IMG/VR virus record: IMGVR_UViG_3300032213_001715
Span: 1 to 51,767 of that record
Origin: a virus
Reading direction: 5' to 3' (one strand)
DNA length: 51,767 nt
Below are positions 1,589 to 24,907 of the stretch, in pieces. The translations under genes were made by a program, and so were the position numbers. Under the pieces are notes generated by a model. The model did no database searches, had not been told where the DNA came from, and was given only the letters and a program-made list of their open reading frames with translations. Each line of letters opens with the position of its first letter. The stretch's first letter is position 1.

Positions 1589-1859
1589 TTAGTGCTTCTT
1601 TTTTTTTGAAGTATTTTAGTATTATAATTTTACCAAAAGAGCCTGATAATAAAAACAATATAATTGTTAACCAATCACCTTTAAGAAAACTATCTACAGA
1701 CCAAGCAGTTGATGCTATCCAAAATAATGTTTGTATATTGAATAGTATTACGGATTTTGTTATATTATTTTCAACAACCCATTTAATTTCTAATACTTTA
1801 AAAACTGCTAAGGCTATTTGAGAAAAAATTACAAATCCGTAAACTATATATGGATGCAT
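1575..1859 (-). CDS. small membrane protein (94 aa), unknown function
   Basis: The product has three hydrophobic stretches, at about residues 4-24, 36-55 and 62-84, separated by short polar turns. It ends in a Lys-rich tail (KYFKKKEALNETI), which suggests an inner-membrane protein with a cytoplasmic C terminus. No family is recognised. Its ATG shares one base with the TAA of the clamp-loader gene (TAATG), and its 3' end overlaps the PLP-enzyme start by 14 bases, so it is translationally coupled on both sides. In T4 the clamp-loader small subunit (gp62) follows gp44; this protein does not resemble gp62. Confidence 0.6.
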   Translation of the reverse strand: MHPYIVYGFVIFSQIALAVFKVLEIKWVVENNITKSVILFNIQTLFWIASTAWSVDSFLKGDWLTIILFLLSGSFGKIIILKYFKKKEALNETI

Positions 1860-2806
1860 TATTTAGATAAAATTTGTAATACAACAATTATACCTGCCAT
1901 AAATTGTATTTCTTTATCAACTACCAACGCATCTTTTGAGGTTGCCTCAGCTAATGCTTGAATCACAGGTGCGGTATTACCTTTTGCATAATCATCCAAT
2001 TTATCATATAAGTAAGAATATGTATCGGTAAAATCAGTTACTCTGTTATCAGCAACTAATTGTCTAACGTTCATAAACTTATTTCTAAGTTCATCTTTTG
2101 ATTTAAGTATCTCCACTAATTTAATACGGAAATCAGAATCTACAATCGTAGCACTATCCGTTTTCAAAACACCCGCTACACAAGCTAATTGGCAAGTGTT
2201 GATAATTTTTCTAATATCAGGATAATAACCATCTACGATAGGAACTAAATCAGATGGGTTAAACTGAATATCCTCTTTTTTTAATATATTTGCAATCTGA
2301 ATTGCTACATCTTTTTTAGTTGGAGGTGTAATTGCAAATGATTGGCATCTACTTTGGATAGGTAAAATGATTTTTTCAATATAGTTACAGGTTAAAATAA
2401 ATCTACAATGTCTACTAAATGTTTCCATTAAGTTTCTTAACAATGCCTGTGCGTTTGGAGTCATATAATCAAACTCATCTAAGATAACAATCTTATATTT
2501 TTTAAAACCAACACCACTTGCAAAGTTTTTAACCTTATTTCTAACCGTATCAACATTGTTCTCATCCGATGCATTGATAATCATAACATCAGATTCTATG
2601 TTTTTTACAATTAATTTAGCTAAAGTAGTCTTACCTGTTCCCGCTTTACCAAAAAACAAAAGGTGGGGGATATCACCACTTTCGATATATCCCTTTACCT
2701 TTGCTTTAAGATTTTCATTACCTACATAATCATCTAACTCTGTAGGTCTATACTTCTCAACCCAAAGTGAATGAACTTGTTCTTCGTTTTGTTCAAAAAA
2801 ACTCAT
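1859..2806 (-). CDS. gp44: DNA polymerase clamp loader, large subunit (T4 gp44-like AAA+ ATPase)
   Basis: This AAA+ ATPase would load the sliding clamp onto primer-template DNA for the phage polymerase. Visible motifs are Walker A GKAGTGKT (residues 53-60), Walker B ILDEFD (108-113), sensor 1 around LTCNY (138-142), and the SRC arginine-finger motif (152-154) typical of RFC/gp44 subunits. The N-terminal WVEKYRPTELDDYVG segment is also classical for RFC-family proteins. At 315 aa it is the normal length for gp44. It follows the clamp gene after 18 bases. T4 needs a second subunit, gp62, in a 4:1 complex; none is recognisable in this window, so it is either elsewhere, too diverged to see, or absent. 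Confidence 0.93.
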   Translation of the reverse strand: MSFFEQNEEQVHSLWVEKYRPTELDDYVGNENLKAKVKGYIESGDIPHLLFFGKAGTGKTTLAKLIVKNIESDVMIINASDENNVDTVRNKVKNFASGVGFKKYKIVILDEFDYMTPNAQALLRNLMETFSRHCRFILTCNYIEKIILPIQSRCQSFAITPPTKKDVAIQIANILKKEDIQFNPSDLVPIVDGYYPDIRKIINTCQLACVAGVLKTDSATIVDSDFRIKLVEILKSKDELRNKFMNVRQLVADNRVTDFTDTYSYLYDKLDDYAKGNTAPVIQALAEATSKDALVVDKEIQFMAGIIVVLQILSK

Positions 2807-2824: not shown

Positions 2825-3541
2825 TTAAGATAATTGTACTTCTACTAAATAGTATGATGAGGTAAACCCATCTACTGCAAATTCAACATGAGATAATCCA
2901 TCTTTAGATACCGCTAAAGTAGCTTTGTTTGCTTCTTTATTAGCAGAAAGGATTTCTTTAAAGTATTTTGCAGAGAATGAAATTGGTTTAACTTCTCCAT
3001 CATAATTATCGTTTACTACTAATTCAACTCTATTGGTGTTAATATTAGAATATCCGATAACAATTTTTAATTTACCTTTTTCTGTTAATACAGTAAAGTT
3101 ATCAATATCACTCAATGCAGATTTTGCTTTAATGAATTTTTCAATAAAGTTTGAATCCATATCAATTACGATATTAAATTCAGGTAATTGTTTTAATTCA
3201 GGTACATTTGGGATTACTGCTAAATCCGCTAATTGGTACTGAACTGCTGTAGAATCGGAAGTTAATGAAAGAGATATTGGTTTTTCTTCTACTTTCTTTA
3301 ATGTTAAATTAACATCATTTCCTAAAACGTTCAATAAACTTTTTAAGGTGTTTGTGTTGTAAACACCAATGCTAGAATCTTCAAATTCAAATTCATTTAG
3401 TGTAACTAAACCCAAAACAGTTTTATCATCTGAAATAAATCTAGTACTTAATGTTTTGTTTTCTGAATTCCATTGTACTGATTCTACTAATCCCGCTAAG
3501 TTATATTTTGAAATAAAGCGGCTCAATCGATTTTTGTCCAT
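2825..3541 (-). CDS. gp45: sliding clamp (T4 gp45-like processivity factor)
   Basis: The 238-aa product matches the length (228 aa in T4) and context of gp45. It lies directly between the polymerase and clamp-loader genes. The sequence shows alternating beta-strand/helix character with the end segment FSSSYYLVEVQLS-like in which the last strand closes the ring, but there are no catalytic motifs. In T4 the trimeric clamp tethers the polymerase and is also the co-activator of late transcription, working with gp33 and gp55. That second role matters here because the structural genes carry a distinct late-type promoter motif. It has its own strong Bacteroidota-type promoter at 3579-3610, immediately after the polymerase stop codon. 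Assignment is from resemblance and synteny. Confidence 0.88.
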   Translation of the reverse strand: MDKNRLSRFISKYNLAGLVESVQWNSENKTLSTRFISDDKTVLGLVTLNEFEFEDSSIGVYNTNTLKSLLNVLGNDVNLTLKKVEEKPISLSLTSDSTAVQYQLADLAVIPNVPELKQLPEFNIVIDMDSNFIEKFIKAKSALSDIDNFTVLTEKGKLKIVIGYSNINTNRVELVVNDNYDGEVKPISFSAKYFKEILSANKEANKATLAVSKDGLSHVEFAVDGFTSSYYLVEVQLS

Positions 3542-3610: not shown

Positions 3611-6145
3611 TTAAAATGAGAAAAATTTATCAGATTTGGTTAATTTTAATTGTAGAGTGCCCCATCCTAAAGCCTTATAAAAATCATCCAATTTGTTCTG
3701 CATTTCATGCTCAAAAATCTTATCATAATCAATGTAATTTTTGATAAAAGTTTCTATTACTTCCGGGTCATCTGCTCCCTTAAATGCTATAGTATCCAAT
3801 CCTAAAGGATTTTGTTTAAGATATACCCATTTCATTTTATCACCATTTCTCATAGGTGAATATTTGAACCCACAATTAAAGTGTTTCAATAATTGATTAT
3901 AAGTCCATGCTGCTTTAACGTGTGCAGGAGTTCCTTTTAGGAATTGAAACATAGCTCCTTTTTCAGGGGTATATTTTGATAATTCTTTTACTGAACTACT
4001 TTTTGCAATATTATATGGTTTAACCAAAGGTAATGAAGTTTTGAATGTTAAAATTCTTTCAGTTATAATTTCTTTACCATCCCCTTTTAGAATATCAATA
4101 AGCGTTTGTTTCATAAAAACTTTAAAAGATTGTGGGAATGAAGAACGAACTACATCCAATCCTTTTACTTGCAGTTGGTCACATTTAATACCATTTTCTG
4201 CAATAATCCATTGTGCATATCTTTTCTTTGCTACCCAAAATCCTGCTTTAGATACAAACTCTTTTTTAATCTGTAATCTATGTACATCAATATTAAACGC
4301 TTTTGAAGCCAACATATCATAAAAGTTGTTTAAGAAATTTTGGCTTTCTCCTGCAATAGCATCTACCTTTAACGCAATTTCATCATCACTTTCATTTTTC
4401 CAATTAGGAAATCTATGGTCTAATAAAGGAACTGATGAAAAGAATACGGAATCGGTATCGATGTATATGTTATAATCCACATCATTTGTTCCTAATTCTT
4501 TATTATATTTAATATTCAACATATTAGCGGTATTCTTAATTACAGTTTGACCTGTTGTAGTTACCGCTTCTGCGTTATCAATATCATAGAATCTAAATGA
4601 AGGTAATCCTAATACACCATATAGTGAGTTCAATAAAATCTTTTGTACCAATTGCCTTTTAGCATAGAAAGCATATTGTTCTGCATCACCTGCTTCACCA
4701 TACTTTTTCTCTAACTTACGATACTCAACCCTTTTTTGAAACCACTCTTCCAAAATTGCAGGAATACATCCTACTTTATCAGTTCTATATACTACTCCAT
4801 TTGATGATACGGAATAATTATTATCTTTTATAAATTGTTGAAATTTATCTCTTTGAACAGTCTTACCCATAATGGTATAACTTTCATCCAAACCTTTAAC
4901 ATATCGTTCTATATCCCAATCATCTACTTTAGCCATTTTAGTTTCAGGAGAAATATTCAAACTCATAATGATTGATGGGTATAGTGATGTTAAATCCAAA
5001 TCATAAATCCAATCATGCTTCCCAACAATAGGGTCTTTAACATATGCACCAATAAATTTTTCATCCTTTGCACCCTCCGCAATACCTCCACTTTCTCGCA
5101 TCGAATCCAACATTCTATCGGAATCTTCTTTTTTTAATTTGTTTGATGCTACCAATCCTCTTTGTCTAAGAAAACATAAAAGTGCACCTTCCATAATTCT
5201 ACCCGCAAAAATAAAATCATCATACGCAATGTGTCCGGCGTGACAGATACCTCTTACTAATTCTATAAATTGTAGCTTCTTATCCATATCTACAATCAAC
5301 CGAACGTCTTCTAAGTTGTACTCAATGAATTTTTCAATATCATTTTTAAATAATTCATCTAAGTTACCGGTATATTCAACTTTACCTCTTCCTAATTCTA
5401 TTCTGGCAACCGTATCCAATCGATAGTTATCCAATTCTTTATAGTTATATTTTTGGTATAACGTAAGATAATCTAACGCAGAAACTCCACCTATAAACCA
5501 TCTTTTACGATATGGTGAAAAGAAAGTTTCTTTAATTGGTGATAATCGTTTTGCGTTCCTATCACCCAATACATTTTTTAAACGATTATAAAGATAGGGA
5601 ATATCAAAGAAATCAATATTCCATCCTGTTAAAATAGTTGGAGCAATTGATTCATATATGTTAAGAAATTTAGATAATAAGTTTGCCTCATTATCAAATG
5701 GGAGAATTTCCCTATTATCAGATTTTGAATGAGTTAATGCTCTATCTTTATCTAAAATTAATACATAATAAAAATCAGATACGGAATCATGCATAGCAAT
5801 AGAAGTAATTTCATTGGTCGCCTTTTCTGTATCAGGCATACCACTAATCATTTCTACCTCAATATCAAATGTTAATATTTTATGACCCTTAGATGGTATA
5901 TCGGAATCAGTATATAAATCCACCAACATACGGGTTACTTCCGGAACATCAGTTTCTAATAATCCTTCATCTTCTTTGGAATATTTAAATACCTTAGTTA
6001 ACCTTTCCCCATAAATACTTTCCCATTCTCCGTTTATAGCTGGTTTAAAAGCATATCGGTTATATGGAACGGTAAAATATCCCTTTACATCATCCCAAAT
6101 ATGGACAGTGTTTGTATTTCGTTGGTAATATATGTTTTGGTACAA
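3611..6145 (-). CDS. gp43: replicative DNA polymerase, family B (T4 gp43-like) with 3'-5' exonuclease
   Basis: This is the main replicase, 844 aa. The proofreading exonuclease shows Exo I FDIEVE (D94, E96), Exo II TGWNIDFFDIPYL (D181) and Exo III YNLED (Y276, D280). The polymerase shows motif A DLTSLYPSI (D384), motif B KILLNSLYG (K502 to G510) and motif C YIDTDS (D563, D565). A KKRYA element follows, typical of the KxY motif. All catalytic residues are intact. It begins 3 bases after the glycosyltransferase stop codon and is transcribed with it from the promoter at 7281-7312. The C terminus (KSDKFFSF) may carry a clamp-binding peptide, as in gp43. No intein or intron interrupts it, although such insertions are common in phage family B genes. 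Confidence 0.97.
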   Translation of the reverse strand: MYQNIYYQRNTNTVHIWDDVKGYFTVPYNRYAFKPAINGEWESIYGERLTKVFKYSKEDEGLLETDVPEVTRMLVDLYTDSDIPSKGHKILTFDIEVEMISGMPDTEKATNEITSIAMHDSVSDFYYVLILDKDRALTHSKSDNREILPFDNEANLLSKFLNIYESIAPTILTGWNIDFFDIPYLYNRLKNVLGDRNAKRLSPIKETFFSPYRKRWFIGGVSALDYLTLYQKYNYKELDNYRLDTVARIELGRGKVEYTGNLDELFKNDIEKFIEYNLEDVRLIVDMDKKLQFIELVRGICHAGHIAYDDFIFAGRIMEGALLCFLRQRGLVASNKLKKEDSDRMLDSMRESGGIAEGAKDEKFIGAYVKDPIVGKHDWIYDLDLTSLYPSIIMSLNISPETKMAKVDDWDIERYVKGLDESYTIMGKTVQRDKFQQFIKDNNYSVSSNGVVYRTDKVGCIPAILEEWFQKRVEYRKLEKKYGEAGDAEQYAFYAKRQLVQKILLNSLYGVLGLPSFRFYDIDNAEAVTTTGQTVIKNTANMLNIKYNKELGTNDVDYNIYIDTDSVFFSSVPLLDHRFPNWKNESDDEIALKVDAIAGESQNFLNNFYDMLASKAFNIDVHRLQIKKEFVSKAGFWVAKKRYAQWIIAENGIKCDQLQVKGLDVVRSSFPQSFKVFMKQTLIDILKGDGKEIITERILTFKTSLPLVKPYNIAKSSSVKELSKYTPEKGAMFQFLKGTPAHVKAAWTYNQLLKHFNCGFKYSPMRNGDKMKWVYLKQNPLGLDTIAFKGADDPEVIETFIKNYIDYDKIFEHEMQNKLDDFYKALGWGTLQLKLTKSDKFFSF

Positions 6146-10871: not shown

Positions 10872-12233
10872 TTATCCCATATTGTCTACATATTTTTTAT
10901 GTAGTAGTTGTTTTTGTAATAACTCTCCATTTTTACTCTCCTTACTTGCTATAATTCCATTTGATGAATTCGCCGCATATACTTCAATGATACCTTTGTT
11001 AGTGTTCATTTTTGCAGGAAAGGTTAACCCATCCGGTCCAAATCTATTTTTCATAACGTGGAATCTAGCGGTATCATTCAACTTATCAGTATCCTTTCTA
11101 CTAACTGATATGATTAAATCTGCGTTCATTACTTTTGCATAACTATCCGCAATTTTATCAGCATGAATCACATCACTTTCAATCGCACTTCTATTAGTTT
11201 GAGATGCAGTCCAAATTGGTATCTGATACTCGCCTCCCATTGCTCTTAAATCAATATAGATACCACCTTGTTCCTGATAATCTGAATTGTTTTTTGAATT
11301 AACCGAAATTAATAAATCAGCGTAGTCTATAATTATTAAATCCGGCTGAAATTTGGTCGAACGAACCATATCAATGTGTGCCGCAATTGTGTTTGCAGTA
11401 ATACCCTTTGGTGGATAATATTTAATCATCAATCCACCTTTTAGTTTATCTACCTTATCCTTAATTTGTTCTTTATTATCTCTTAACTCAGATGATGGGA
11501 TACCGGTAAAGATTGTATCATATCTTTGCCCAACATAGTTCTGTGTAAGTTCTAATGTATAGTGTAATACATTCTTCCCCTGTCTAACTGCTTCCGCACC
11601 AATGTGGCAAAGAACCCAAGTCTTACCAACTCCAGATGGTGCAACAATTACTCCTAACTCACCAGGCCCTAATCCTCCATCTATTAACTCATCGATAACA
11701 TCCCAATTAGTTTTAACGGTTCTTCTATTAACCTCTTCAAAACGAACTTCTATATCTTCTTTGTAATCTAATCCTAAATCATTTGTTTGCCCAACTTTAA
11801 CCGCATCTCTTACTAATTTTTCAATCTTATCAAATTGACCCGTTTGTAATAGGTCAACTGAGGTAAGGATAACATTTTTAAAGTTTTGATTTTTACAGAA
11901 TGTTACGAATTCATTCTTAACCCATTCGGAATCCCCACCACTTTGAAGAGCGTAAATTGCTTTTAACTGAGTGAGAACATTTTGTTGAAGTGCCTTATCG
12001 GTAATTTTTTGTATCTCCGTTTTAAAGAAATCAGTAGTAGGAGTATTTTTGTATTTAGAAAAATATTTACGGGTTATATCAACTACCCATTTATTAGTAT
12101 CAGATTCAAAATACTTTGTTTCCAAAATATCCGAAACTTGCTCTAAGAAAGGTCTATCTGTTACTAAATTGGTTACCACTTTTGTTTGGTAACTCTGTCC
12201 GTATTTTGCTAAATTATCTACCGATTCACTCAT
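10872..12233 (-). CDS. gp41: replicative DNA helicase (T4 gp41 / DnaB-like)
   Basis: This is a RecA-fold hexameric helicase that unwinds the fork 5'-3'. The N-terminal ~165 residues are helical, as in the DnaB N domain/linker. The C-terminal motor has Walker A APSGVGKT (198-205), the H1a segment HYTLELTQ with its catalytic Glu, Walker B DLIIIDYADLL (about 297-307) and the H3 sensor WTASQTNRSA. It lies between the 5' nuclease and the 109-aa gene. The promoter -7 element ends only 4 bases before the ATG, so the mRNA is probably leaderless or nearly so. No alternative in-frame ATG occurs nearby, so the listed start is kept. Confidence 0.94.
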   Translation of the reverse strand: MSESVDNLAKYGQSYQTKVVTNLVTDRPFLEQVSDILETKYFESDTNKWVVDITRKYFSKYKNTPTTDFFKTEIQKITDKALQQNVLTQLKAIYALQSGGDSEWVKNEFVTFCKNQNFKNVILTSVDLLQTGQFDKIEKLVRDAVKVGQTNDLGLDYKEDIEVRFEEVNRRTVKTNWDVIDELIDGGLGPGELGVIVAPSGVGKTWVLCHIGAEAVRQGKNVLHYTLELTQNYVGQRYDTIFTGIPSSELRDNKEQIKDKVDKLKGGLMIKYYPPKGITANTIAAHIDMVRSTKFQPDLIIIDYADLLISVNSKNNSDYQEQGGIYIDLRAMGGEYQIPIWTASQTNRSAIESDVIHADKIADSYAKVMNADLIISVSRKDTDKLNDTARFHVMKNRFGPDGLTFPAKMNTNKGIIEVYAANSSNGIIASKESKNGELLQKQLLHKKYVDNMG

Positions 12234-12272: not shown

Positions 12273-13316
12273 TTATAAAACTAAATTACCGAATGATGAC
12301 CTCAGCCAATCATTAACATCGCCCCAATTTTGTAGTATCTTATATTTCATCCCAAACCCAATGAATTTCATTTTATCCAATGGTTCAACTGATTCAGTAA
12401 ATCTGTCGTTTATTTTAAGTTTGGTAATCCCGCTAATATCCGGGTCTTCCAATTGCATTATTTGGAAATTTCTTTCGATTATTTTTTTACTATCTAAAAT
12501 GGTTTGAAAAACTTTGTATTCCCCCTTTTGTTCCTCTGCTAATCTCATCAGTTCATCCACTGTCAATCTAACATCAGTTTCTAATACGGGTAATCTCTTA
12601 AGGAGTGTTTTTAATCCACACCCTTTTACACCATCTATGTTATCGGATTTATCACCATCCATTACTCTATACCATATAAAGTTTTCAGCGTGAACTCCGT
12701 ATAATTCTTTTAATTTATCCTTATCAATTTTTTGTTTCTTCAACGGATTCCAAACGTGGATATTATCCGAAACTAATTGTAAGAAATCTTTATCCGATGA
12801 AAGAATTAATGCTCCTTCTCCTTCATCTTCTTTGATAACTTGTTTAGCCAAATAACCGATTACATCATCTGCTTCTATGTTATCATATATCATTGTAGTT
12901 ACCGGCAATACCCCTAAGATATTAGCCAATGAACTCAATTGCCTTCTCAAACTTACTTGCTCATCTTCTTCACTCATCATATCATCATACTGACGATTGA
13001 CTCTGAATTTAACTTTTCTATCCGCTTTGTAATTTGAAAATACTTCTTTTCTTTTTTGTGAACCACCCTTACCATCAAATATTACTACTACTCTAGTAGG
13101 GTTTTCCTGGCGTATAACTGCTCCTAATGATTTTAGGAATCCAACCATACCACCTGTATGTTCTCCATCTTCGTTCATTGTAGGATTTGTACTCCAACAA
13201 CGGAAGAACATATTTAGCCCATCCACAAATAACACCTTAGAATTTCTAGTTCTAAGGTGTTTAGTGGTATGTTCCAAATTTACTTCATCTAATAAATTCT
13301 TGTATTTGTTATTCAC
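12273..13316 (-). CDS. 5'-3' exonuclease / flap endonuclease (T4 RNase H-like)
   Basis: This 347-aa member of the FEN/5' nuclease family would remove RNA primers and flaps from lagging-strand fragments. Metal-binding motifs: FVDGLNMFFR (D32), VIFDG (D81) followed by KRKEVFSNYKADR, NIEADDVIGYL (E148, D150, D151), LSSDKDFLQL (D175, D177), and the H3TH motif GDKSDNIDGVKGCGLKTLL (D222, D225). The start codon is GTG, sharing one base with the UvsX stop (TAGTG). The next in-frame Met is N36-M inside the first motif, so the GTG start is effectively required. It ends just before the helicase promoter. Confidence 0.92.
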   Translation of the reverse strand: MNNKYKNLLDEVNLEHTTKHLRTRNSKVLFVDGLNMFFRCWSTNPTMNEDGEHTGGMVGFLKSLGAVIRQENPTRVVVIFDGKGGSQKRKEVFSNYKADRKVKFRVNRQYDDMMSEEDEQVSLRRQLSSLANILGVLPVTTMIYDNIEADDVIGYLAKQVIKEDEGEGALILSSDKDFLQLVSDNIHVWNPLKKQKIDKDKLKELYGVHAENFIWYRVMDGDKSDNIDGVKGCGLKTLLKRLPVLETDVRLTVDELMRLAEEQKGEYKVFQTILDSKKIIERNFQIMQLEDPDISGITKLKINDRFTESVEPLDKMKFIGFGMKYKILQNWGDVNDWLRSSFGNLVL

Positions 13317-14434
13317 TATTCTACTTCGTTTGGTAAATTTGTATCAACTTCCATTGCTTCAATATCGTATGTATCCTTTTTATATTGAAGAATAGTCGTC
13401 TCACAAATCTTTTTATAAATTTGGTCTCTTAACTCAGGCTTTTCTTGCATCATTACAATAAAATCCTTTGATTGGAATTTAATAACTTCACCTGAATCAG
13501 TATCTACATACTCATACCAAGCTCCGCCTTGCTTAACTAACTTATTATCTTTCAATACAGTCAGCCAGCTACCATAGTTATCGATACCTCTATCGAAATA
13601 GATTTCAAAATCTGCTGAACGAAGTGGTGGCCCTAATCGGTTCTTAACCACTTGTGCTCTTACTGAGATTCCTACAACTTTATCCGTTCCACCAATTTTA
13701 GTTTTAATTTGACCAACGTTCTTCAATCTTAAACGAACTGATGCGTGGAAAGCCAAAGCCTTACCACCACTCGTTGTCCAAGGGTCACCGAACATTACTC
13801 CTAACTTTTGTCTTAATTGGTTTGTGAAGATAACTGCAATTTTCTGTCTACCAATTACATTGGTAATCTTTCTCATTGCCTTAGATATGATAATAGCTTT
13901 ATCGGTTGCATAACCGTCTTTATCATAATCCGATTCCATCTCTTTCTTAGTAGAAGCCGCCGCAACGGAATCCACAACGATTGTTACTAATCTATCTTTG
14001 TCAGATGTTCTAACTTTTTCAATGATTGTTTCAATTGTTTCAAAAATATCCTCAACTGTATCTACACTTACATATAGAAGTTTGGATACATCTACTCCAA
14101 TTGCATCAAAGAACTCTCTACTTACCGCAGTTTCAGTATCAATCAATACTGCAACTCCACCTTGCTTTTGAGTTTCCGCTAAGATGTGGGCAGAGAGTAA
14201 TGATTTACCACTCTGCTCCAAACCTGTGATTTCAGTAATTCTACCAACAGGTATTCCACCATACGGGCGATTAGAAATAGCAACGTCCATCATAGCTGCT
14301 CCGGTTGAAATCCACCCATTTACATTGGTTGGTGCTCCATCGGAATCATCATCTAAGAAGAAAGCGATTTTTTGGTCTTTGTTTTTCTTGTTCAGACTAT
14401 CGACCAGAATATCTGCTAAATCAGTTTTTGCCAT
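13316..14434 (-). CDS. uvsX: UvsX/RecA-family recombinase
   Basis: This 372-aa protein drives strand exchange and recombination-dependent replication. Walker A is GLEQSGKS (71-78). The catalytic Glu follows in IDTETAVS. Walker B lies in VTIVVDSVAAAS, and the L2/Gln region reads FTNQLRQKLGVMFGDPWTTS with GGKALAFHASVRLRL after it, as in RecA and UvsX. The C terminus is acidic, a feature of recombinase tails. It follows the SSB gene after 16 bases and overlaps the nuclease gene by one base, making a gp32-uvsX-nuclease transcription unit. The mediator UvsY is not recognised in the window. Confidence 0.95.
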   Translation of the reverse strand: MAKTDLADILVDSLNKKNKDQKIAFFLDDDSDGAPTNVNGWISTGAAMMDVAISNRPYGGIPVGRITEITGLEQSGKSLLSAHILAETQKQGGVAVLIDTETAVSREFFDAIGVDVSKLLYVSVDTVEDIFETIETIIEKVRTSDKDRLVTIVVDSVAAASTKKEMESDYDKDGYATDKAIIISKAMRKITNVIGRQKIAVIFTNQLRQKLGVMFGDPWTTSGGKALAFHASVRLRLKNVGQIKTKIGGTDKVVGISVRAQVVKNRLGPPLRSADFEIYFDRGIDNYGSWLTVLKDNKLVKQGGAWYEYVDTDSGEVIKFQSKDFIVMMQEKPELRDQIYKKICETTILQYKKDTYDIEAMEVDTNLPNEVE

Positions 14435-14450
14435 AATTTATAACTTGTTA

Positions 14451-15326
14451 TTATTTGAATAAATCTTCGAATGCATCCGCAACTTGTTGAGTTGTTTTGG
14501 ATACAGGGGTTGATGGTGTTTCATCCCAAGGTAACTCTTGTTGAGTAGCCTTTTGTGGAATCTCATCATCTAATTGGTGAGGCTTTGTATCAAAATCAAA
14601 TGAATCACTTACACTCTTTTCTGTTTTAGCCACAAGTGTTTCTTGTGTAGCAGATGGTGTACCCTCATCAGTTGTGTTTCCAGCTAACCAATTTTCTAAG
14701 ATTTTCTTCAACTCATCATATGACAATTCTGAGTAGATAGTGGTGATTTCTTTTTCGTTACCAATCAACTCCTTAATCTTCTCATCGTTTTCATGCAACT
14801 TAGTAGTTGTAGGTTTAACTCTGATAGTAGTAGTTGGGTAAGATGCTCCACCTTCCGCTGCTGCATAATCTACGACGATATCTCTACCACTAAAAGGGTC
14901 TGATAAATCACCGTAATCTGGGTCTGCGAAATAACCCAATAATTCTTGATAAACAGTTTTACCGAATCCCCAAAACTTAACACCTTCATTTTCCTGACCT
15001 CTTACGATTACGGGAACAAAAGTTCTTAATTTTGGCTCCATTTTCTTAGCTTCGCGGTAATCATCCTTTCCACCCATTCTCTTAAGTTTTTCTGCAAACT
15101 CTACGATTGGGTCAGGTCTTCCGAATGAAGCTGGTGATAAATAGGATTTGTTGTTGATGTTGTAGTGAAAATACAATTCAATAAAAGGAATATCCTTGTT
15201 GAATTTGTAAGGTACTAAACGGATTTGGTGTTTACCAACTGTTGGCTTCCATAGTGAGTCAGCCGTTTTCTGTGTGCCCTGAAGTTTGTTCAGACGGGCT
15301 CTGATTGCATCAATGTTTGTTGACAT
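14451..15326 (-). CDS. gp32: single-stranded DNA-binding protein (T4 gp32-like)
   Basis: The 291-aa protein has the three-part layout of gp32. A short basic N terminus (DAIRARLNKLQG) would serve cooperative self-binding. The OB-fold core runs from about residues 25 to 190 (GKHQIRLVPYKF, LYFHYNI, FWGFGKTVYQELLGYF). A linker leads to an acidic C-terminal tail (ELPWDETP and QQVADAFEDLFK), which recruits partner proteins. The zinc-binding His/Cys set of T4 gp32 is not present, as in other distant relatives. Both a host-type promoter and a late-type box lie upstream, which matches the need for SSB throughout infection. Confidence 0.88.
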   Translation of the reverse strand: MSTNIDAIRARLNKLQGTQKTADSLWKPTVGKHQIRLVPYKFNKDIPFIELYFHYNINNKSYLSPASFGRPDPIVEFAEKLKRMGGKDDYREAKKMEPKLRTFVPVIVRGQENEGVKFWGFGKTVYQELLGYFADPDYGDLSDPFSGRDIVVDYAAAEGGASYPTTTIRVKPTTTKLHENDEKIKELIGNEKEITTIYSELSYDELKKILENWLAGNTTDEGTPSATQETLVAKTEKSVSDSFDFDTKPHQLDDEIPQKATQQELPWDETPSTPVSKTTQQVADAFEDLFK

Positions 15327-15786: not shown

Positions 15787-15817
15787 CAAATATACGAAAA
15801 CAATTACTTTACCCAAC
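15787..15817 (-). promoter_or_regulatory. Bacteroidota-type promoter (relaxed spacing) for 97-aa gene
   Basis: The coding strand reads GTTGG (15813-15817), 18 bases, TATATTTG (15787-15794). The -7 box is exact, and the spacing is one base shorter than in the other copies. The -33 box falls inside the last codons of the YbaN-like gene. Confidence 0.6.
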
Positions 15818-16796: not shown

Positions 16797-19700
16797 TTAT
16801 TTTTTACACTTTGTTATCCAAGTTGAAAACGATACATTTATGCCCGCTTTTCTCTTTCCACTCGCATCACCTTTAATTTTGAGTTCTCCTGGATTTGGAT
16901 TGAATTTAACACAGCACTTTTCATTTATACCATCCAAAACTTCCATTGATATTCTAGTTCGTGCACCCGTACCACTTTCTACAAATCTAACATTACCAAA
17001 GTTATTTGATTTAACATCTTCATTAAACATCATCTCGAATAACATCCCAGTCTTATTATATAATTCTAATCCTCTATCAAATTCTGCATCCATCTGCTCA
17101 TCTCCTAAACTATTTTGATATGATTTTTTAGCCTGTTGATATGCAGATTTTTCACCATCGGTTGCTTTCTTTTCTACATCGGAAACCATTCTTTCAGCCT
17201 GCTCAGGACTCTTACCCTGCTCAATTAAAATTTGTATCATGTGAGCTCTTTGTACTTTATAGCTTTCCTCTGCTTTATCAATTGCTTCTTTTGAAGGTGG
17301 GTAATCTCCATAAATAGCATGATAGCTATCCATCATTGAATCTAATACCTCTTTTGTTTTTTCATTATTAAATGTACTTCCATCAGTTTTAGAAGGACCG
17401 GCACTTGCACCACCCTTACCTAACTTAATACTTTCAGCATCACTATCAATAAATGAAACACTATTTGCAGAGTATTCATTTGCATAAAATTCTGCTAATT
17501 CTTCCGGAGTTGCGTTTTCCGGTGGAGTTTTTTGTTGATTAAATGAAACAATATCAACAGTTGGGAAGTTTGATGATGAAGGTAAAAATGCCTGATTCCC
17601 CTTTCCAATTTCATTCATAAATACTAAAACTTCCGCTATATCAGGACCACCTGATGCTATATCTTTATCCCTTCTTATATTTTGTAATACATCTGTAAGT
17701 TTACCTAAATATTCTTGTGATGCTTTTTCTTTTTCTTCTGCACTCATAGAATCCCAATTCGGATTGTTTATAGGTGCAGATTTTTCTATCTCATCTATAC
17801 TTTTAAATAATTCTGCATATTTTTGTAGAATTTCTTCTTCGGATAATCCCGAATATTTTTTTATAGATTTTAATATACTTTTTCTAGTTTTATCTATTGT
17901 ATTCTTAAGGGTCTTTTTTCTATTATCATCGGTATCTGTTGGGCCGTAATCAACCACTTCCATTTCACCATCTTTTGAAAGTTTATCCACCATTGTATTT
18001 CCTCTTTCAATAGCAGCAATTACTTTTCTAGCTTCTTCATTTGCCTCCTCTTCAGAAGAACCTTGTTTAATAAATTGTTCAACTAAATTTTTTTGTTCTA
18101 CTAAAGTTTTTTTATCTGGCACTGGTCTTTTAGTATAAGTAACCCCATCTACTGTTACGCTATTTCCATTCTCAGAAACTTCAAATTTTACTTTTCTGCG
18201 TTTTTTATTCATCTTATTCGCAGTCCAATCTTTTTTATTTACATAAGCACCTGTTTGGGTTCTAATAGGTAATCCGTATTTATTTACCATACTATCATTC
18301 CATTCCTCTGATTTAGTATCATAATCCTCAACCTTTTGAGGGTCTATATTCATTTGGATTTTTTCTCTTGAATTAGAATCAAAATCTCCTTCTGTTTTAG
18401 CTATATAAAGACCAATATCATTTCCTCCTCCAACTCTAACTGCTAACCATTTACTTGCAATCTCCGAATTAGTAGGGTCTACATCTTCTCCTTTAAGGAT
18501 TTTGGCAATAGTGTCTTTTAATATTTCTTTAGTTGAATCATCCGCTTCAGAATTATCGATATGTTTATTAGCCTCTGCTGTACGTTTTTTTATAACATCA
18601 TCACTTATTTTCAAATTAGTTCTAGCAGTTGCTACATCTACATTAGGAGTATCCTCTTCTTTAGCTTTTTCAACTTCTTTGTTTGCATCAGGTTGGTCTT
18701 TAACATCAATAGCTTTAACCATTACTTCTTTGCCTGAAGGAGTTTTCATAGTTAAATTTTCTTCAAATAATAAATGTATAAATTTAATATTTTCTTCTAT
18801 GAATACTTTATTAACTACACTTTCAGATTTCATATATTGAGCGGGTCCTCCTTTTGTATCAGAATAGTATCCTCCACCTAATGGATATATCACACCACCT
18901 TCTTTTTCTTTAGGTTCTTTTGGTTCTGGCATTTCACCATCTTTAACATCCGCTTTCTTAGCTGCAATTCCCATATCTTCGGCAAACTTATTCGCCATTG
19001 GAATCGCATCTTTAATATCCATATCGATTACCGTTGATTTCATTGGTATCGGATTGTTAGGATTCTTAGCGTTATGTGCTACGATTGCCGCCCATCTATG
19101 GTGTCCATCGATTACATATCCATCTCTACTCACATATATCGGTGCAGTAATCTTTGGGTGATTAGGGTCTTTCTCTAATGCCCCCATCATACCAATTACC
19201 TTACCACCAACTAAATCTTTTTGCGTTGCTTTTAATTTATCAGCAGGTACTTCTGTTTGTAATACTTTGATGTTCTTCTCTTTCAACATCTCTCTGAATA
19301 CTGGCTCTGTATCTACTTCGCCATCTTTATCCGTTTCCATTCCTGCTGCTCTACTACCATCCACTGCCTTTCCTTTGAATTGAGGCATTTCTTCTCTAGG
19401 TATTCCTTTATTATCATCACAATATAAGTTGGTTCCAGGAATAGTAATATCACATAAATTGATGTCCGGTGCAGGTTCTCCCTTAGCCTTTGCATCATCT
19501 AACATTTTAGTAATCTTACTTATATCAGTATTGAATTGGTTTAAATCGTTTGGAGAAATTCCATCTAATGCTTTACCATCTTTACTGAATGTTTCTTTAT
19601 CAGCTTCCGGCATTTCTTCCGCTACTTTTTGAGGCTCTACTTGCTTAGTTTCAGTTTTTTTTTCTGAACCTTTTTGCATCATTTTATCAACTAATTCAAC

Positions 19701-21971
19701 ATGACTCTCTCCTGCAATTACAATTGGTATCTTACCCTTAGCTACTAATTCTTTTCTTTTCTCTATGATATTCTCATCTCTCGTGTCATTAAACGCAACT
19801 TGAATATCATTTATTTTTGTTTCCTTATCGCCATTATCTCCCGGAAATGCTAATCTGAATAATGTTCCTCTATCACCACTTCCCTCTGGATTTTCTTCAT
19901 TAGGTACTTCTCCGGTTGGGTTATCAAAATTTTCTATTGGTGGAAATCCAGCTTCTTTAACCGCATCTTCTAAGAATTTTCTACCTTCATCATCTAAGAA
20001 ATCTTTTGGTGACATTGTATCAGTTCCCTCACCTTGCCCAATCATACTAGCCCAATTACCAGCTTTAACTTGTGAATCGTTAAGACCGGTTTTCTCCATT
20101 TGTTTTTTGTACAACTTAGATTGGTCATCATGCACATCTAATTCATCACCATCCCATGTATCAATCCCAGCTCCCAATTTCTCAAATCTCGGAGCTGCAT
20201 AAGCCATTTCATCGTTAAATTCTAATTCATCGTTTTCACCGGTTGCACCACCCTCTCCTAAGAATACAATATTTTCCCATTCTTCTTGAGGAATAGTTGC
20301 TTTTATTTGGTCAATTATATCATCAACCATTTTAGTATTTCCATGAACTGTTCCGAACATCATTCCACCATCTTCAAATTCTATTGTTTGGATTTCTTTA
20401 CCCGATTTTTTACCTTTAAATTTCTGTACTTTTGAATCAGTATCTTCGTTAGCAGGTTGTAACCTAGTAGGTTCTCCAATTGTACCTTTTCCAGAATCTT
20501 CTTGTGTATTCTTATCGATAGTTTGCTGAGATTTAAATGCTCTGGCTTTAGCTTTATTCTGTGCACTTGCTTTAGGGTCATCTAAAACTAAATCAGGATT
20601 ATCTTTTGGTAAAGTTTTTTCCGCTTCCTTTTCTTTAGTATCTAATGCTTTGGTTGCAGTATCAATCATAGATGCGGTATCAGGCTTATCACTATCTGAC
20701 TCCCCATCAGTTGGTTCTTCTGAAGGTGTTTGTTTGTTTACTTCAGCTTTTTCCTTATCTGTTAAAGGTCTTAAATTACCTTTATCATTTTTAAGCTCAG
20801 CTTGTCCTCCATCTTTACTAGAGTAATATCCACCTCCTAAGTGAAACTTACCTGGAAATTCTTTTGATTCACCCTTACCATCTTCTTCGTTTAGTATTCT
20901 ATTAAACAATTCATTTAAATCTATTACTTCCGATTGTGCCTCATTTGGTTTTTTCTTTTCGTTATATGAATCTACGATTTTCATCATTACCTCATCTGGT
21001 ATATCCATATTCTCCATATTATCAGCAACGGAATCCATAAAATCACCTAACATTCTTTCATCATCTCCATCTGCTCCCGCAAATAGGGATGCTCTACCAA
21101 CCCCAACTACAATAGTTTCTACTACCGCGTGTGGAATCAATTCCATTGCAACGTGCTTAGCAAACGCAGCTGCACCATGCGCCAATCCACCACCAACTGC
21201 AGCAAATACTGCAGTACTCGCTACCTTAATTCCAACGGATATTATAGCTTTTCTTTCTTCTTTTTCTAATTCTTTCCATCCTCCAGGATTACTATATAAT
21301 TTCCCAACAGCTTTACCGGCGGTTTTAAATGTATGCACCTCATGCTTAAGACCATGCATAATAGCATTTCTAGCTCCTTTTACTTTATCTTTTAACGCCT
21401 GCCCAAAACTTCTACGAGTTTCCGAACCTGGTTTATCCTGACCTTTATTAAAAAATTCTTTTTCTTTTTCAGTCCATTTTTCCACTTTACTTTTCAGTAT
21501 ATCCGCCTTCGATTTAACCACAGGTGTAGTTTTCATAGGAGCAGGTGCTTCTACGGAAGCATCTTTTGGTTTCTCTACTGAAGGTGTTTCAGATGAAGGT
21601 TCTTTTGGTGTAGGAGCAGTTGGTTTTTTCACAGGAGGTGTTTTACCACTCTTTGAATCAAACTTTGCCTTTTCTTCTGGAGTTACGGGTCTTAAATTAC
21701 CCTTATCGTTTTTAAATTCAGCTTCTCCTCCATTTTTAGAAGAATAGTATCCTCCACCTAAGTGAAACTTACCTGGAAACAAACCAGATTCTTTTTCATC
21801 TTCCGCTTCTGAAAGCAATTCGTATAGATTAGGTTTTATATATCCATACCCTAACTCATCACATATTTCCATCAACGCAATTACCTGCTCCTTATCCTTC
21901 ATATTTGGAAATGGATATGTTACAGATAATTCTAAAAGTAGCTCATCTATGATTTTATTAATATCAGCCAT
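16797..21971 (-). CDS. giant multidomain protein (1724 aa) with ParB-like domain; possible polyvalent or internal virion protein
   Basis: Segments in order: an N-terminal helical part; a first motif FPGKFHLGGGYYSSK (about 65-80); a Pro/Lys-rich linker; a basic then hydrophobic helical region (about 190-300, with Ala/Gly/Val-rich helices at 241-298 that could enter a membrane); a second copy of the motif (372-386); an acidic linker; an alpha/beta region (about 530-765, containing MFGTVHGN and IVIAGESHVELV) with no firm family; a ParB/Srx-like domain (about 890-1000) with the hallmark GYVIDGHHRWAA; a shortened third motif copy (1028-1037); then ~650 residues of charged helices and a C-terminal beta-rich piece. 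Such mosaics with ParB-like domains resemble the polyvalent proteins that phages inject with DNA. It lies between structural and replication genes and follows the 131-aa gene by 4 bases. Role inferred only. Confidence 0.6.
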   Translation of the reverse strand: MADINKIIDELLLELSVTYPFPNMKDKEQVIALMEICDELGYGYIKPNLYELLSEAEDEKESGLFPGKFHLGGGYYSSKNGGEAEFKNDKGNLRPVTPEEKAKFDSKSGKTPPVKKPTAPTPKEPSSETPSVEKPKDASVEAPAPMKTTPVVKSKADILKSKVEKWTEKEKEFFNKGQDKPGSETRRSFGQALKDKVKGARNAIMHGLKHEVHTFKTAGKAVGKLYSNPGGWKELEKEERKAIISVGIKVASTAVFAAVGGGLAHGAAAFAKHVAMELIPHAVVETIVVGVGRASLFAGADGDDERMLGDFMDSVADNMENMDIPDEVMMKIVDSYNEKKKPNEAQSEVIDLNELFNRILNEEDGKGESKEFPGKFHLGGGYYSSKDGGQAELKNDKGNLRPLTDKEKAEVNKQTPSEEPTDGESDSDKPDTASMIDTATKALDTKEKEAEKTLPKDNPDLVLDDPKASAQNKAKARAFKSQQTIDKNTQEDSGKGTIGEPTRLQPANEDTDSKVQKFKGKKSGKEIQTIEFEDGGMMFGTVHGNTKMVDDIIDQIKATIPQEEWENIVFLGEGGATGENDELEFNDEMAYAAPRFEKLGAGIDTWDGDELDVHDDQSKLYKKQMEKTGLNDSQVKAGNWASMIGQGEGTDTMSPKDFLDDEGRKFLEDAVKEAGFPPIENFDNPTGEVPNEENPEGSGDRGTLFRLAFPGDNGDKETKINDIQVAFNDTRDENIIEKRKELVAKGKIPIVIAGESHVELVDKMMQKGSEKKTETKQVEPQKVAEEMPEADKETFSKDGKALDGISPNDLNQFNTDISKITKMLDDAKAKGEPAPDINLCDITIPGTNLYCDDNKGIPREEMPQFKGKAVDGSRAAGMETDKDGEVDTEPVFREMLKEKNIKVLQTEVPADKLKATQKDLVGGKVIGMMGALEKDPNHPKITAPIYVSRDGYVIDGHHRWAAIVAHNAKNPNNPIPMKSTVIDMDIKDAIPMANKFAEDMGIAAKKADVKDGEMPEPKEPKEKEGGVIYPLGGGYYSDTKGGPAQYMKSESVVNKVFIEENIKFIHLLFEENLTMKTPSGKEVMVKAIDVKDQPDANKEVEKAKEEDTPNVDVATARTNLKISDDVIKKRTAEANKHIDNSEADDSTKEILKDTIAKILKGEDVDPTNSEIASKWLAVRVGGGNDIGLYIAKTEGDFDSNSREKIQMNIDPQKVEDYDTKSEEWNDSMVNKYGLPIRTQTGAYVNKKDWTANKMNKKRRKVKFEVSENGNSVTVDGVTYTKRPVPDKKTLVEQKNLVEQFIKQGSSEEEANEEARKVIAAIERGNTMVDKLSKDGEMEVVDYGPTDTDDNRKKTLKNTIDKTRKSILKSIKKYSGLSEEEILQKYAELFKSIDEIEKSAPINNPNWDSMSAEEKEKASQEYLGKLTDVLQNIRRDKDIASGGPDIAEVLVFMNEIGKGNQAFLPSSSNFPTVDIVSFNQQKTPPENATPEELAEFYANEYSANSVSFIDSDAESIKLGKGGASAGPSKTDGSTFNNEKTKEVLDSMMDSYHAIYGDYPPSKEAIDKAEESYKVQRAHMIQILIEQGKSPEQAERMVSDVEKKATDGEKSAYQQAKKSYQNSLGDEQMDAEFDRGLELYNKTGMLFEMMFNEDVKSNNFGNVRFVESGTGARTRISMEVLDGINEKCCVKFNPNPGELKIKGDASGKRKAGINVSFSTWITKCKK
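18831..18896 (-). repeat. third, shortened copy of the LGGGYYS protein motif
   Basis: Encodes residues 1026-1047 of the giant protein, reading YPLGGGYYSDTKGGPAQY. It lies directly after the ParB-like domain. It lacks the upstream FPGKFH part and the downstream NDKGNLRP part of the other copies. Confidence 0.7.
20736..20858 (-). repeat. second copy of the FPGKFHLGGGYYSSK module
   Basis: Encodes residues 372-412 of the giant protein (FPGKFHLGGGYYSSKDGG, then NDKGNLRPLTDKEKA). It shares about 85% of residues with the first copy over 35 positions by eye. The coding DNA for GKFHLGG is nearly identical in both. Confidence 0.85.
21657..21779 (-). repeat. first copy of the FPGKFHLGGGYYSSK module
   Basis: Encodes residues 65-105 of the giant protein (FPGKFHLGGGYYSSKNGG, then NDKGNLRPVTPEEKA). 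Each full copy follows an acidic helix and precedes a Pro/Thr-rich linker, so the module may mark domain boundaries, for example as a processing or binding site. Confidence 0.85.
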
Positions 21972-21975
21972 AAAA

Positions 21976-22371
21976 TTAATTAAATTCTATTTTTTCAAAA
22001 ATTCTAGTTGGAACTTTTCTTATTCCTTGTAAACCCGTCAATATAATACAATTTCTAAATTTATCCCAATCTAACGAAAATGAGGTATCTAAAACACCAC
22101 CATTCTCTTCTTTAATAAGTTGGTTTAACGCATTGATTGTATATAGGGTATTTGATTGTTTCTTTCTATGTACCAATATAGTGTTGGGTAACTGCTTATT
22201 TGGTCTAAATTCCACATCGATATTATATGTGATATATAACTCATCTAAATTTGTTTTATTCTGTAGAATGTAGATGTAATTATATACAATTTTATAATTT
22301 TCTCTTATTTGTTGCAATATATCCTGCAAAACTTCTTTATCTGTAAAGGTGCATAGTAACTGTGTTTTCAT
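21976..22371 (-). CDS. hypothetical protein (131 aa), probably co-expressed with the giant protein
   Basis: The product is a mixed alpha/beta protein with no catalytic motif I recognise. The first half alternates Tyr/Ile-rich strands and helices (NYKIVYNYIYILQNKTN). The centre contains PNTILVHRKKQSNTLYTINALNQLI, and the end TGLQGIRKVPTRIFEKIEF. It ends 4 bases before the giant gene, and a variant late-type box lies 30 bases upstream, so it may be a late, virion-related protein or a chaperone for its neighbour. Function unknown. Confidence 0.55.
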   Translation of the reverse strand: MKTQLLCTFTDKEVLQDILQQIRENYKIVYNYIYILQNKTNLDELYITYNIDVEFRPNKQLPNTILVHRKKQSNTLYTINALNQLIKEENGGVLDTSFSLDWDKFRNCIILTGLQGIRKVPTRIFEKIEFN

Positions 22372-22401: not shown

Positions 22402-22410
22402 TATAAGTAT
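22402..22410 (-). promoter_or_regulatory. variant late-type box upstream of 131-aa gene
   Basis: The coding strand reads ATACTTATA (one mismatch to ATATTTATA), overlapping the stop codon of the family A polymerase gene. It is preceded by GTTACGGAAATAT (22414-22426), the same 13-mer that precedes the late box at 36396-36404. Confidence 0.45.
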
Positions 22411-23648
22411 TAAATATTTCCGTAACTATAATTTTTCTCCATCTTTGTAGGAGATATTCTATGTAAAACCTCCTCTATTTTAGATAAAAGTTCAATTTCG
22501 TTAGTATCAACATCAAATAAAAAAGAATCATATGTGTAAAGAACCAATTTTGTTTTAGTATTTTCCAATAAAATGTTGAGTTGGTGTAACAGTAAAACGT
22601 TCTGTTCGGTTTCTAATGCCTGTAAATAATAGTTAAATACCTTTTGTGGGTTGTGTTTATCTATTTTAGTAAATGGTATTCTTTTCCCAAATCTGGTCTC
22701 AATAAATCCATTAACTATAAATTGGTTATAAAGATTGATTATAAAATCATTTGTTTTCTGAAAGAATGGTATCTCTAAATTATGAACATCAATTCCCCCA
22801 TATAATTGTTGGAAGGTAATCTTCTTACTATTAAGATAATCCTCTTCGGTTAGTTCTTCTTTTCCAAAATATTGTTTACCCAACCATTCATGAGCAGAAC
22901 CCTCCGGTATAATTTCTCCTATCAGTTTTGCAATCAATCGAATATGATATCCATCAAAATCATATTGAACTAATTCACCATTCTTACTAACAATGAAATC
23001 CCTACTACCATCTGATTTCTTAAGAGCTGAGTAATTCACTCCTCCGAAGGTATTTGAAGGTCTACCCGTTGTGGTAAAATTATTGTAAAGAGCATACTCA
23101 TATCCATATGTGGTAGGAATACCATTTGCTTCGATTCTAAGGAACGATGGAATTGTATAATCATTATATCTATCAAAACCATTTGAATCGATTCTAGCGT
23201 ACTTAGCGTTCTCCACAACGAACTCTACAACTCCTTTTAGGATAGTTGCAATTGGAATGAATGAAATATCACTTTTATCTCTATATCCGTTGGTGAATGA
23301 TTGGTATATCATATCATACGCATAGGATTTAAACTCCGTTAAATGATATGAAACATCTACACTTTTCCAATTTGTAATTTTGGTTTTATGTAAAAACCAT
23401 TTGGTATCAAAGATGTACTTAACTCTATCACTTCTTTCCAATATGGATAAACTAACTGAGACACAATCATTGTGGTCTTCCATTATCACCCAACAATGTT
23501 CTCCTATAAACACAAAAACACCCAATAGTTTATTGACTATGGGGTGTTCTGTTCTATTTTTGAATAGCGGGAATATAACAGAGTCTTTGGATGTGTATTC
23601 ATCCATAAACTTTATCGCGATATCTTTATTCTCTACATAGTAAACCAT
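22410..23648 (-). CDS. minimal family A DNA polymerase (Pol I-like)
   Basis: The 412-aa protein (from the ATG at 23646-23648) has a polymerase palm of the Pol I family: FTTTGRPSN (about 191-199, matching TxTGRLSS), motif A QYDFDGYHIRLIAKL (D230), motif B KKITFQQLYG (K275, F279, Y283), a conserved Gln (Q343), and motif C YTYDSFLFD (D374). The motif A residue matching the Glu steric gate (E710 in E. coli Pol I) is His235. The motif C HDE triplet is YDS. The ~180 N-terminal residues look like a decayed exonuclease/thumb region (YIFDTKWFLHK). It is far shorter than T7 polymerase (704 aa). An in-frame TTG nine bases upstream lies in the promoter -7 box, so ATG was chosen. It may be a repair, translesion or primer-extending enzyme. 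Confidence 0.82.
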   Translation of the reverse strand: MVYYVENKDIAIKFMDEYTSKDSVIFPLFKNRTEHPIVNKLLGVFVFIGEHCWVIMEDHNDCVSVSLSILERSDRVKYIFDTKWFLHKTKITNWKSVDVSYHLTEFKSYAYDMIYQSFTNGYRDKSDISFIPIATILKGVVEFVVENAKYARIDSNGFDRYNDYTIPSFLRIEANGIPTTYGYEYALYNNFTTTGRPSNTFGGVNYSALKKSDGSRDFIVSKNGELVQYDFDGYHIRLIAKLIGEIIPEGSAHEWLGKQYFGKEELTEEDYLNSKKITFQQLYGGIDVHNLEIPFFQKTNDFIINLYNQFIVNGFIETRFGKRIPFTKIDKHNPQKVFNYYLQALETEQNVLLLHQLNILLENTKTKLVLYTYDSFLFDVDTNEIELLSKIEEVLHRISPTKMEKNYSYGNI

Positions 23649-23654
23649 AGAAAA

Positions 23655-23686
23655 CAAATATACGAAAAATTTTTAAGAATTCCAAT
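23655..23686 (-). promoter_or_regulatory. Bacteroidota-type promoter for family A polymerase
   Basis: The coding strand reads ATTGG (23682-23686), 19 bases, TATATTTG (23655-23662). The -33 box lies inside the last codons of the PhyH-like gene (KYWNS). The -7 box ends 6 bases before the ATG, so the transcript should be nearly leaderless. Confidence 0.75.
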
Positions 23687-24449
23687 ATTTTTCTTGCAAA
23701 GGTTGCAAATCAATTGGTTCTCTCTTCATATGTGAACCCTGATTGAAGTATGCTCCCTTTTTAAGGTATCCTCCTAATAGATTTCTACGGAATCTGTTTG
23801 AATCATTTGTTTCCGAACCATGTACACAATGTGAGTGAAGTAGAACTACCTGTCCTTTTTTAAGGACTCCCTCTACTTTACGGAAATCGTGTCCTTCTGG
23901 CATAATACAAGGTTTACCTCTTTCGTTTCTCCAAAAGTTAGGATTAGTTTTAGCTCTTTCCTCATCTACCTCAATAGGTAATGTAGGTAATCTATGTGAA
24001 CCTTCGTAGTTCCAAACTGCTCCGTTACCCGCATCGTGGTTATCCAACGCCAATGCAGTATTGATAATCTCATTATGCCCACATCCTGTGTAGAATGCAT
24101 TTTGATGCATATCTCTACCTAATTGTCCAGGTGGTTTGAAGTAACACCAAGTCTGCATACCAACAATATCACCACCCATAAGGTATGAACATGCTTCTAT
24201 AATCTTTGGATGTACAAAAAGTTTCTCTATTTTTTCTGAGATTTTATGTGGGTATGAAAACGGGTCCCATTCTCCCCACTCTTTACCATCTGGAGTAAGT
24301 GTTCCCTTTCTTTCCTGACGAAGTCTTTCTAACTCATCATTTATTTCATCACACTCTTCTTCGGTAAGTAATTCTAAGGTTGTAAACCCTCTGTATCGCC
24401 AATCAAACGTAATTTGTTGGACTTCTAAATCTGTAAGATGTTTGAACAT
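23673..24449 (-). CDS. phytanoyl-CoA dioxygenase (PhyH)-like Fe(II)/2-oxoglutarate oxygenase with altered metal triad
   Basis: The 258-aa protein fits the PhyH family. It has an N-terminal GFTTLELLTEEECDEINDEL, a core MQTWCYFKPPG, a first metal-site segment DMHQNAFYTG, and a distal segment VVLLHSHCVHGSETNDSNRFRRN with His210 and Arg for 2-oxoglutarate. In functional members the first segment is H-x-D; here it is H115-Q-N117, confirmed at codon level (CAT CAA AAT). The loss of the carboxylate ligand suggests either a changed chemistry, such as an open site as in halogenases (there Ala/Gly), or a non-catalytic role. Possible substrates include small metabolites, amino acids or modified bases. 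It lies between baseplate genes and the family A polymerase. Confidence 0.8.
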   Translation of the reverse strand: MFKHLTDLEVQQITFDWRYRGFTTLELLTEEECDEINDELERLRQERKGTLTPDGKEWGEWDPFSYPHKISEKIEKLFVHPKIIEACSYLMGGDIVGMQTWCYFKPPGQLGRDMHQNAFYTGCGHNEIINTALALDNHDAGNGAVWNYEGSHRLPTLPIEVDEERAKTNPNFWRNERGKPCIMPEGHDFRKVEGVLKKGQVVLLHSHCVHGSETNDSNRFRRNLLGGYLKKGAYFNQGSHMKREPIDLQPLQEKYWNS

Positions 24450-24517: not shown

Positions 24518-24907
24518 TTAATTACCTCTATAAAATTGTTTTAGATTAACTAAGTATAGGTTTATATCCGACAAAACCTTCATTGCTTCAGTAATAGACC
24601 TTTTATTTGAGTTAATTACGGATGGTATTAAAGCTCCCTGAGTTGTATATGAATCTTCTAAGTTACCACTTATTCTCCAATTAATTTTTACTCCTCTATA
24701 AAAATTGGAATTATTAAATTTATAAAATATCTCTTTATCCACTTCAAAAATAGGAGAACCAGATGTATCTCTCAATTGTACAAAATATCGTGTTATCACA
24801 CCTTCATTGTAATTATCTTGAGTAGGTGTAGGAAAAAAAGTTCTAGGTATTTTTGTATTAACAACTACGTTTTTTAGAGTTTTATATTTTTTTATCAAAT
24901 CATTCAT
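24518..24907 (-). CDS. hypothetical baseplate-region protein (129 aa)
   Basis: No named family is recognised. The protein has a basic N-terminal helix (MNDLIKKYKTLKNV), a beta-rich middle with YFVQLRDTSGSPIFEVDKEIFYKF and VKINWRISGN, and a C-terminal helix (SITEAMKVLSDINLYLVNLKQFY). It is the last gene of the tape-measure/baseplate unit, 4 bases after the 713-aa gene, so a small baseplate component is the likely role. Confidence 0.6.
   Translation of the reverse strand: MNDLIKKYKTLKNVVVNTKIPRTFFPTPTQDNYNEGVITRYFVQLRDTSGSPIFEVDKEIFYKFNNSNFYRGVKINWRISGNLEDSYTTQGALIPSVINSNKRSITEAMKVLSDINLYLVNLKQFYRGN

Follow-up and report, generated by a model that had tools for sequence, protein, structure and literature searches.

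The identification of a strongly reduced second DNA polymerase, of family A and belonging to the divPolA1 class, beside the complete family B replicase of a T4-type phage is the principal finding of this study. The stretch of DNA analysed (the window), a linear fragment of 51,767 bases, makes up an IMG/VR record in full, and the gene in question lies on its minus strand together with codons for two catalytic aspartates:

22410..23648, minus strand: divPolA1-type mini family A DNA polymerase, 412 aa (ATG at 23648, stop codon ending at 22410)
22959-22961, minus strand: codon for D230 (motif A) of the mini-polymerase
22527-22529, minus strand: codon for D374 (motif C) of the mini-polymerase

The explanation that best accounts for the observations as a whole, and which we hold with modest confidence, is that this gene encodes a catalytically competent, strongly reduced divPolA1 polymerase with an accessory role in short-patch DNA synthesis. 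The name was given to proteins of 14 phages, one of which is Flavobacterium phage immuto, each encoded alongside a regular family A, B or C DNA polymerase; their catalytic palm is conserved and their thumb truncated, the exonuclease is inactivated, and genes for replication follow downstream (Yutin et al., 2024, Virol J; PMC11348598). No function was assigned in 2024, when only those 14 genomes defined the class; the present analysis finds it widespread in environmental T4-type phages, with more than 500 environmental loci.

When the single sequence of the mini-polymerase was scanned against Pfam, DNA_pol_A was matched at an E-value of 7e-5, below the curated cut-off, and the score of divPolA1-type proteins falls under that cut-off in most records, so that standard annotation misses them. 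A single-sequence search against PDB sequences gave no match, and a profile was needed: that of the family, built from an alignment of 58 homologues (the window protein and environmental relatives), matched Klenow at 3.4e-8 with the TGR hairpin and motifs A, B and C aligned. The AlphaFold model (pLDDT 92.8, pTM 0.89) was matched to the Bst Pol I large fragment with a Z-score of 27.7 over 389 residues (rmsd 3.1), and Foldseek likewise returned the Pol I palm and fingers fold (E 3e-18). Superposition on Bst and Klenow, Foldseek and the profile all place this fold in the protein, and the initial annotation, which had described a 412-aa Pol I-type palm and called for structure prediction against Pol I, is borne out by a predicted structure in which a polymerase palm is present. 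The window protein is also homologous to the divPolA1 prototype, gp001 of phage immuto (E 5e-43, 88% coverage, 31% identity, with the motifs shared in one alignment), and displays the other features of the class, namely a truncated thumb, an inactivated 3'-5' exonuclease, a regular polymerase encoded in the same phage and downstream replication genes (SSB-UvsX-exonuclease-helicase-NrdB-NrdA). We regard it as almost certain that the mini-polymerase has a family A fold and is a member of divPolA1. It is, then, not unprecedented: two polymerases in one T4-like phage had been thought unusual, and although a minimal PolA is truly there beside the PolB, it belongs to a class already named, and two polymerases are the rule within its phage clade.

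The reduction of the protein is most evident where the thumb is expected. The interval between the IExNG motif and the TGR arginine, which houses the thumb in Pol I, spans 23 aa in the window protein and 23-41 aa across the family, as against 127 aa in E. coli Pol I and 125-263 aa in ten phage PolAs, from which the thumb is judged to be essentially gone; the initial suspicion that there was too little sequence for a normal thumb was well founded. Residues 1 to approximately 105 align with the Pol I exonuclease region, and the N-terminal part of the model aligns with the degenerate exonuclease region of Bst (model residues 1-412 against Bst 300-875), yet the homologue alignment contains no conserved acidic residue within residues 1-130. 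The N-terminus thus appears to be a degenerate exonuclease fold from which the proofreading residues have been lost, in keeping with the earlier statement that no intact exonuclease is present. Several homologous ORFs of about 340 aa (loci L042, L046, L052, L064 and L066 among them) begin past the exonuclease remnant altogether and are possibly the smallest natural family A polymerases.

Despite this loss, the catalytic centre has been retained. Positions are given here from the ATG, except in the correspondence with E. coli Pol I, where a 415-residue numbering counted from an upstream TTG is used and 3 must be subtracted (D233 becomes D230 and D377 becomes D374). On that basis R668=R199, R682=R219, D705=D233, H734=H256, K758=K278, F762=F282, Y766=Y286, N845=N342, Q849=Q346 and D882=D377. 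A profile-profile comparison with the full-length PolA of immuto scored poorly and was dropped for residue mapping. All metal ligands and most dNTP contacts are retained. The two catalytic aspartates, D230 and D374, are invariant in 106/106 and 107/107 non-redundant homologues, with none of the random substitution that would have spoken against the motif A and motif C assignments of the initial annotation, and its motif B Lys/Phe/Tyr (K275, F279 and Y283) is invariant or nearly so in the same 106-107 sequences. The patterns by which the first set was recruited included motif A or C residues. As a control for this bias, a second set was recruited solely through the neighbouring 131-aa protein, and here too the aspartates were invariant (41/41 and 42/42), as were the nucleotide-site residues His, Lys, Phe and Tyr. 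The ratio dN/dS against close relatives was 0.04-0.06 (against relatives of 66-70% it was saturated), and the gene is under strong purifying selection. The mini-polymerase is very probably an active polymerase.

The active site nevertheless departs from that of other family A polymerases. At the steric-gate position equivalent to E710 (residue 235) all 106 non-redundant homologues have His, whereas among E. coli Pol I and ten phage PolAs the residue is Glu in 10/11 and Gln in 1/11. At the position of R754, which is Arg in all 11 comparison PolAs, 91 of the 106 homologues have Tyr and one has Arg, and E883 is replaced by Ser or Ala in divPolA1-type homologues. In known PolAs R754 is a ligand of the dNTP triphosphate, so that with its loss in nearly all members the activity of divPolA1 may be low or altered.

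The genes that bear on function lie, like that of the mini-polymerase, on the minus strand:

1859..2806, minus strand: clamp loader (phrog_168)
2825..3541, minus strand: probable sliding clamp (weak phrog_947 match)
3611..6145, minus strand: gp43-type family B DNA polymerase with exonuclease domain, 844 aa (phrog_262)
10872..12233, minus strand: DnaB-type replicative helicase
12273..13316, minus strand: 5'-3' exonuclease, Pol I/FEN type (PF02739)
13316..14434, minus strand: UvsX/RecA-type recombinase
14451..15326, minus strand: gp32-type single-stranded DNA-binding protein (PF08804)
21976..22371, minus strand: conserved 131-aa protein, in all cases downstream of divPolA1, with invariant HRK...YT.N..N and W102
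24518..24907, minus strand: 129-aa protein closing the baseplate cluster, with a conserved place upstream of divPolA1

A complete family B replicase had been proposed for this phage, and the PolB at 3611-6145 matches phrog_262 over its full length (E 7e-185). The order baseplate genes, 129-aa protein, divPolA1, 131-aa protein, gp32 SSB, UvsX, 5'-3' exonuclease, DnaB, NrdB and NrdA, all on one strand with variable spacing, is constant wherever the contig reaches, in more than 100 loci as well as in immuto, Microcystis phage Mel-JY01 and the 484-kb LR756508, although in some members no match to the 129-aa protein was detected. When approached from the 131-aa gene, the polymerase lay upstream on the same strand in 34/34 contigs with more than 6.4 kb of sequence upstream of that gene. 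The initial annotation had placed the polymerase gene among tail genes; it does adjoin baseplate and tail genes, but the gene order puts it at their boundary, at the head of a recombination/replication cassette and not buried within the tail cluster. A gp43-type PolB was found in 19/23 records searched, and the PolB-less records may be incomplete. Phage immuto has no PolB but a full-length 777-aa PolA and has retained the mini-polymerase, whose role is therefore independent of the replicase family; the notion that the mini-PolA might be the sole replicase of this gp43-less phage was rejected on account of the full-length enzyme. Homologues were also present on five MAG contigs, three of them labelled as Bacteroidota lineages, which are probably phage contigs.

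The 131-aa protein had no convincing match among Pfam, PHROG and PDB families, and its model gave weak, non-significant ferredoxin-like PDB matches over residues 1-67, with no OB fold among the structural matches listed; the idea of an OB-fold priming partner thus gained no support. Other genes of the window, all on the minus strand, may be recorded here. A PhyH-family (phytanoyl-CoA dioxygenase-like) gene at 23673-24449 is an insertion that separates the 129-aa gene from the polymerase, both in this clade and in some relatives; a 1724-aa protein (16797-21971) contains repeated FPGKFHLGGGYYSS... segments and a YVIDGHHRWAA stretch that appears ParB/sulfiredoxin-like by eye; the protein at 15804-16214 is of the DUF454 (YbaN-like) type; and that at 821-1588 matches the phage threonine dehydratase family phrog_7093. 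In LR756508 (record W03; 259363-267278) the gp43 match is split between two reading frames about 4 kb apart, which suggests an intein, intron or homing-gene insertion.

A strong host-type promoter of its own had also been claimed for the mini-polymerase gene. The element on which this can be judged is the following:

23655..23685, minus strand: promoter-like site TTGG-N19-TATATTTG, a Bacteroidota-type match ending 6 bases before the mini-polymerase ATG

As a sigma-70 site it does not stand out, the scan having returned 20 sites in the window against 21 expected, but the general pattern TTGG-N17..20-TATNTTTG, which resembles the Bacteroidota promoter consensus, occurs six times, always on the coding strand (at 7311, 9102, 12268, 15433, 15816 and 23685, minus strand), as against 0.3 in simple shuffles. 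Most copies are just upstream of genes, and the six are likely to be a phage promoter set of Bacteroidota type. The site is retained upstream of the gene in relatives, and the near-zero leader suggests a leaderless transcript. The alternative TTG start at 23657, 9 bases upstream of the ATG, would add 3 aa to the protein and overlaps the promoter-like -7 element within TATATTTG.

Our current working hypothesis is that the mini-polymerase is an accessory, weakly processive enzyme making short DNA patches, which would extend recombination intermediates or fill gaps left by the 5'-3' exonuclease, with gp32, UvsX or the 131-aa protein holding it on DNA in place of a thumb. This accessory role is argued from the fold, the invariant catalytic residues, the low dN/dS, the fixed gp32-UvsX-exonuclease-DnaB cassette and the presence of a separate replicase. 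Translesion, gap-filling or priming-related synthesis had been suggested in the initial annotation. The synteny favours short-patch synthesis tied to recombination or replication, and the 5'-3' exonuclease of the cassette, whose type is found joined to Pol I in cellular organisms, speaks for the same reading; conserved synteny is, however, an association and not proof of a role. T4 fills gaps with no polymerase besides gp43, so that the need for a dedicated gap filler is not obvious. We put forward the recombination or gap-filling role in short-patch synthesis tentatively. A bolder version, with the 131-aa protein or gp32/UvsX acting as a thumb in trans and the His altering sugar selectivity, would make of the protein a split polymerase dedicated to recombination or priming and the core enzyme of a large, mostly uncultured T4-type clade; this we consider unlikely.

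A role as primase-polymerase, in which the protein, together with a small partner that may be the 131-aa protein, would start chains on single-stranded DNA for DnaB as CCPol-MP of SCCmec does, seems to us rather unlikely. The arrangement is admittedly similar, a truncated PolA with a small conserved neighbour and a helicase close by, and in CCPol, too, the exonuclease is only partial and the thumb is shortened (PMC10061031; PMC7581432). The constant linkage to the 131-aa gene points the same way. However, a DnaG-type primase was detected in 8/14 records, including immuto, Mel-JY01 and LR756508, the 131-aa model had no significant PDB match and no OB fold among the matches listed, where an OB fold is predicted for MP, and CCPol retains E710 where divPolA1 has His. 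Translesion synthesis is distinctly unlikely: a missing thumb, lost proofreading residues and a nucleotide pocket altered by the changed steric gate and the loss of R754 could allow insertion opposite lesions at which the replicase stalls, and the association with UvsX and gp32 would suit such a function, but no lesion-bypass feature is identifiable from the sequence and the gene belongs to the fixed core of its clade instead of being a sporadic accessory.

The replacement of the sugar-discriminating Glu710 by His in every member, when other PolAs have Glu or Gln there, raises ribonucleotide incorporation or RNA synthesis as a further explanation, and an RNA polymerase role was considered for divPolA2, the second of the diverged classes (Yutin et al., 2024; PMC11348598). 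A bulky His could still block the 2'-OH, the equivalents of F762 and Y766 are retained and a promoter-recognition domain is absent, which leaves this explanation highly unlikely. That the protein is no longer an enzyme and has a structural or regulatory role is hardly credible; its gene adjoins the baseplate cluster and the thumb and exonuclease residues are gone, but the metal ligands and dNTP-site residues are invariant in more than 100 homologues and dN/dS is about 0.05.

The preferred reading, an accessory short-patch polymerase, thus concerns an enzyme that is locked into the gp32-UvsX-exonuclease-helicase cassette whatever the replicase, that is set apart within family A by two active-site positions and by the loss of nearly the whole thumb, and that may be the smallest natural polymerase of its family. 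Its role is now testable, and it poses the question of how DNA can be polymerised when the thumb is missing or Glu710 has been substituted. A steric gate is nowhere mentioned in the text of the original description (PMC11348598), to which we add measurement of the thumb interval, the invariant steric-gate His, the loss of R754, the 131-aa partner, the exonuclease-less members of about 340 aa, the environmental loci and the strictly syntenic cassette.

Among known systems the closest is divPolA1 of immuto itself, which shares with the window the palm, the thumb truncation, the dead exonuclease, the status of second polymerase and the same downstream replication genes, but which is accompanied by a full-length PolA where the window has a PolB. 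The divPolA2 proteins of barbaviruses are likewise a second PolA beside a PolB, with no thumb homologous to that of other polymerases, but have an extra, unrelated N-terminal domain, a variable neighbourhood and paralogues (PMC11348598). In the window there is instead an exonuclease remnant, a fixed neighbourhood and a single copy; its N-terminus can be aligned with the exonuclease region of Pol I, no unrelated globular domain replaces the thumb, and the protein was not placed in divPolA2. The TV-Pols, which occur in mobile elements and viruses, are also minimal family A polymerases that lack a proofreading exonuclease, but they have a two-helix thumb and RxxxK and are never nuclease-linked (Iyer et al., 2008; PMC2579912). 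The window protein has almost no thumb and YxxxK, with an exonuclease gene in its cassette, and both this linkage and the absence of RxxxK (Tyr in 91/106, Arg in 1/106) exclude it from that family. The whole mini-polymerase model superposes on the Klenow and Bst large fragments, with conserved catalytic residues and an exonuclease degenerate as in Bst, yet about 100 thumb residues are missing, the fingers are shorter and E710, R754 and E883 have become His, Tyr and Ser/Ala, respectively. The CCPol-MP/PolA-SSB primases of SCCmec and Bacillota elements combine a truncated Pol I and exonuclease remnant with a small conserved partner gene and a nearby helicase (PMC7581432; PMC10061031); CCPol differs in a thumb that is shortened yet present, in keeping E710, in its predicted OB-fold partner, and in helicase type and mobile-element context, and these primases are the nearest characterised analogue of divPolA1.
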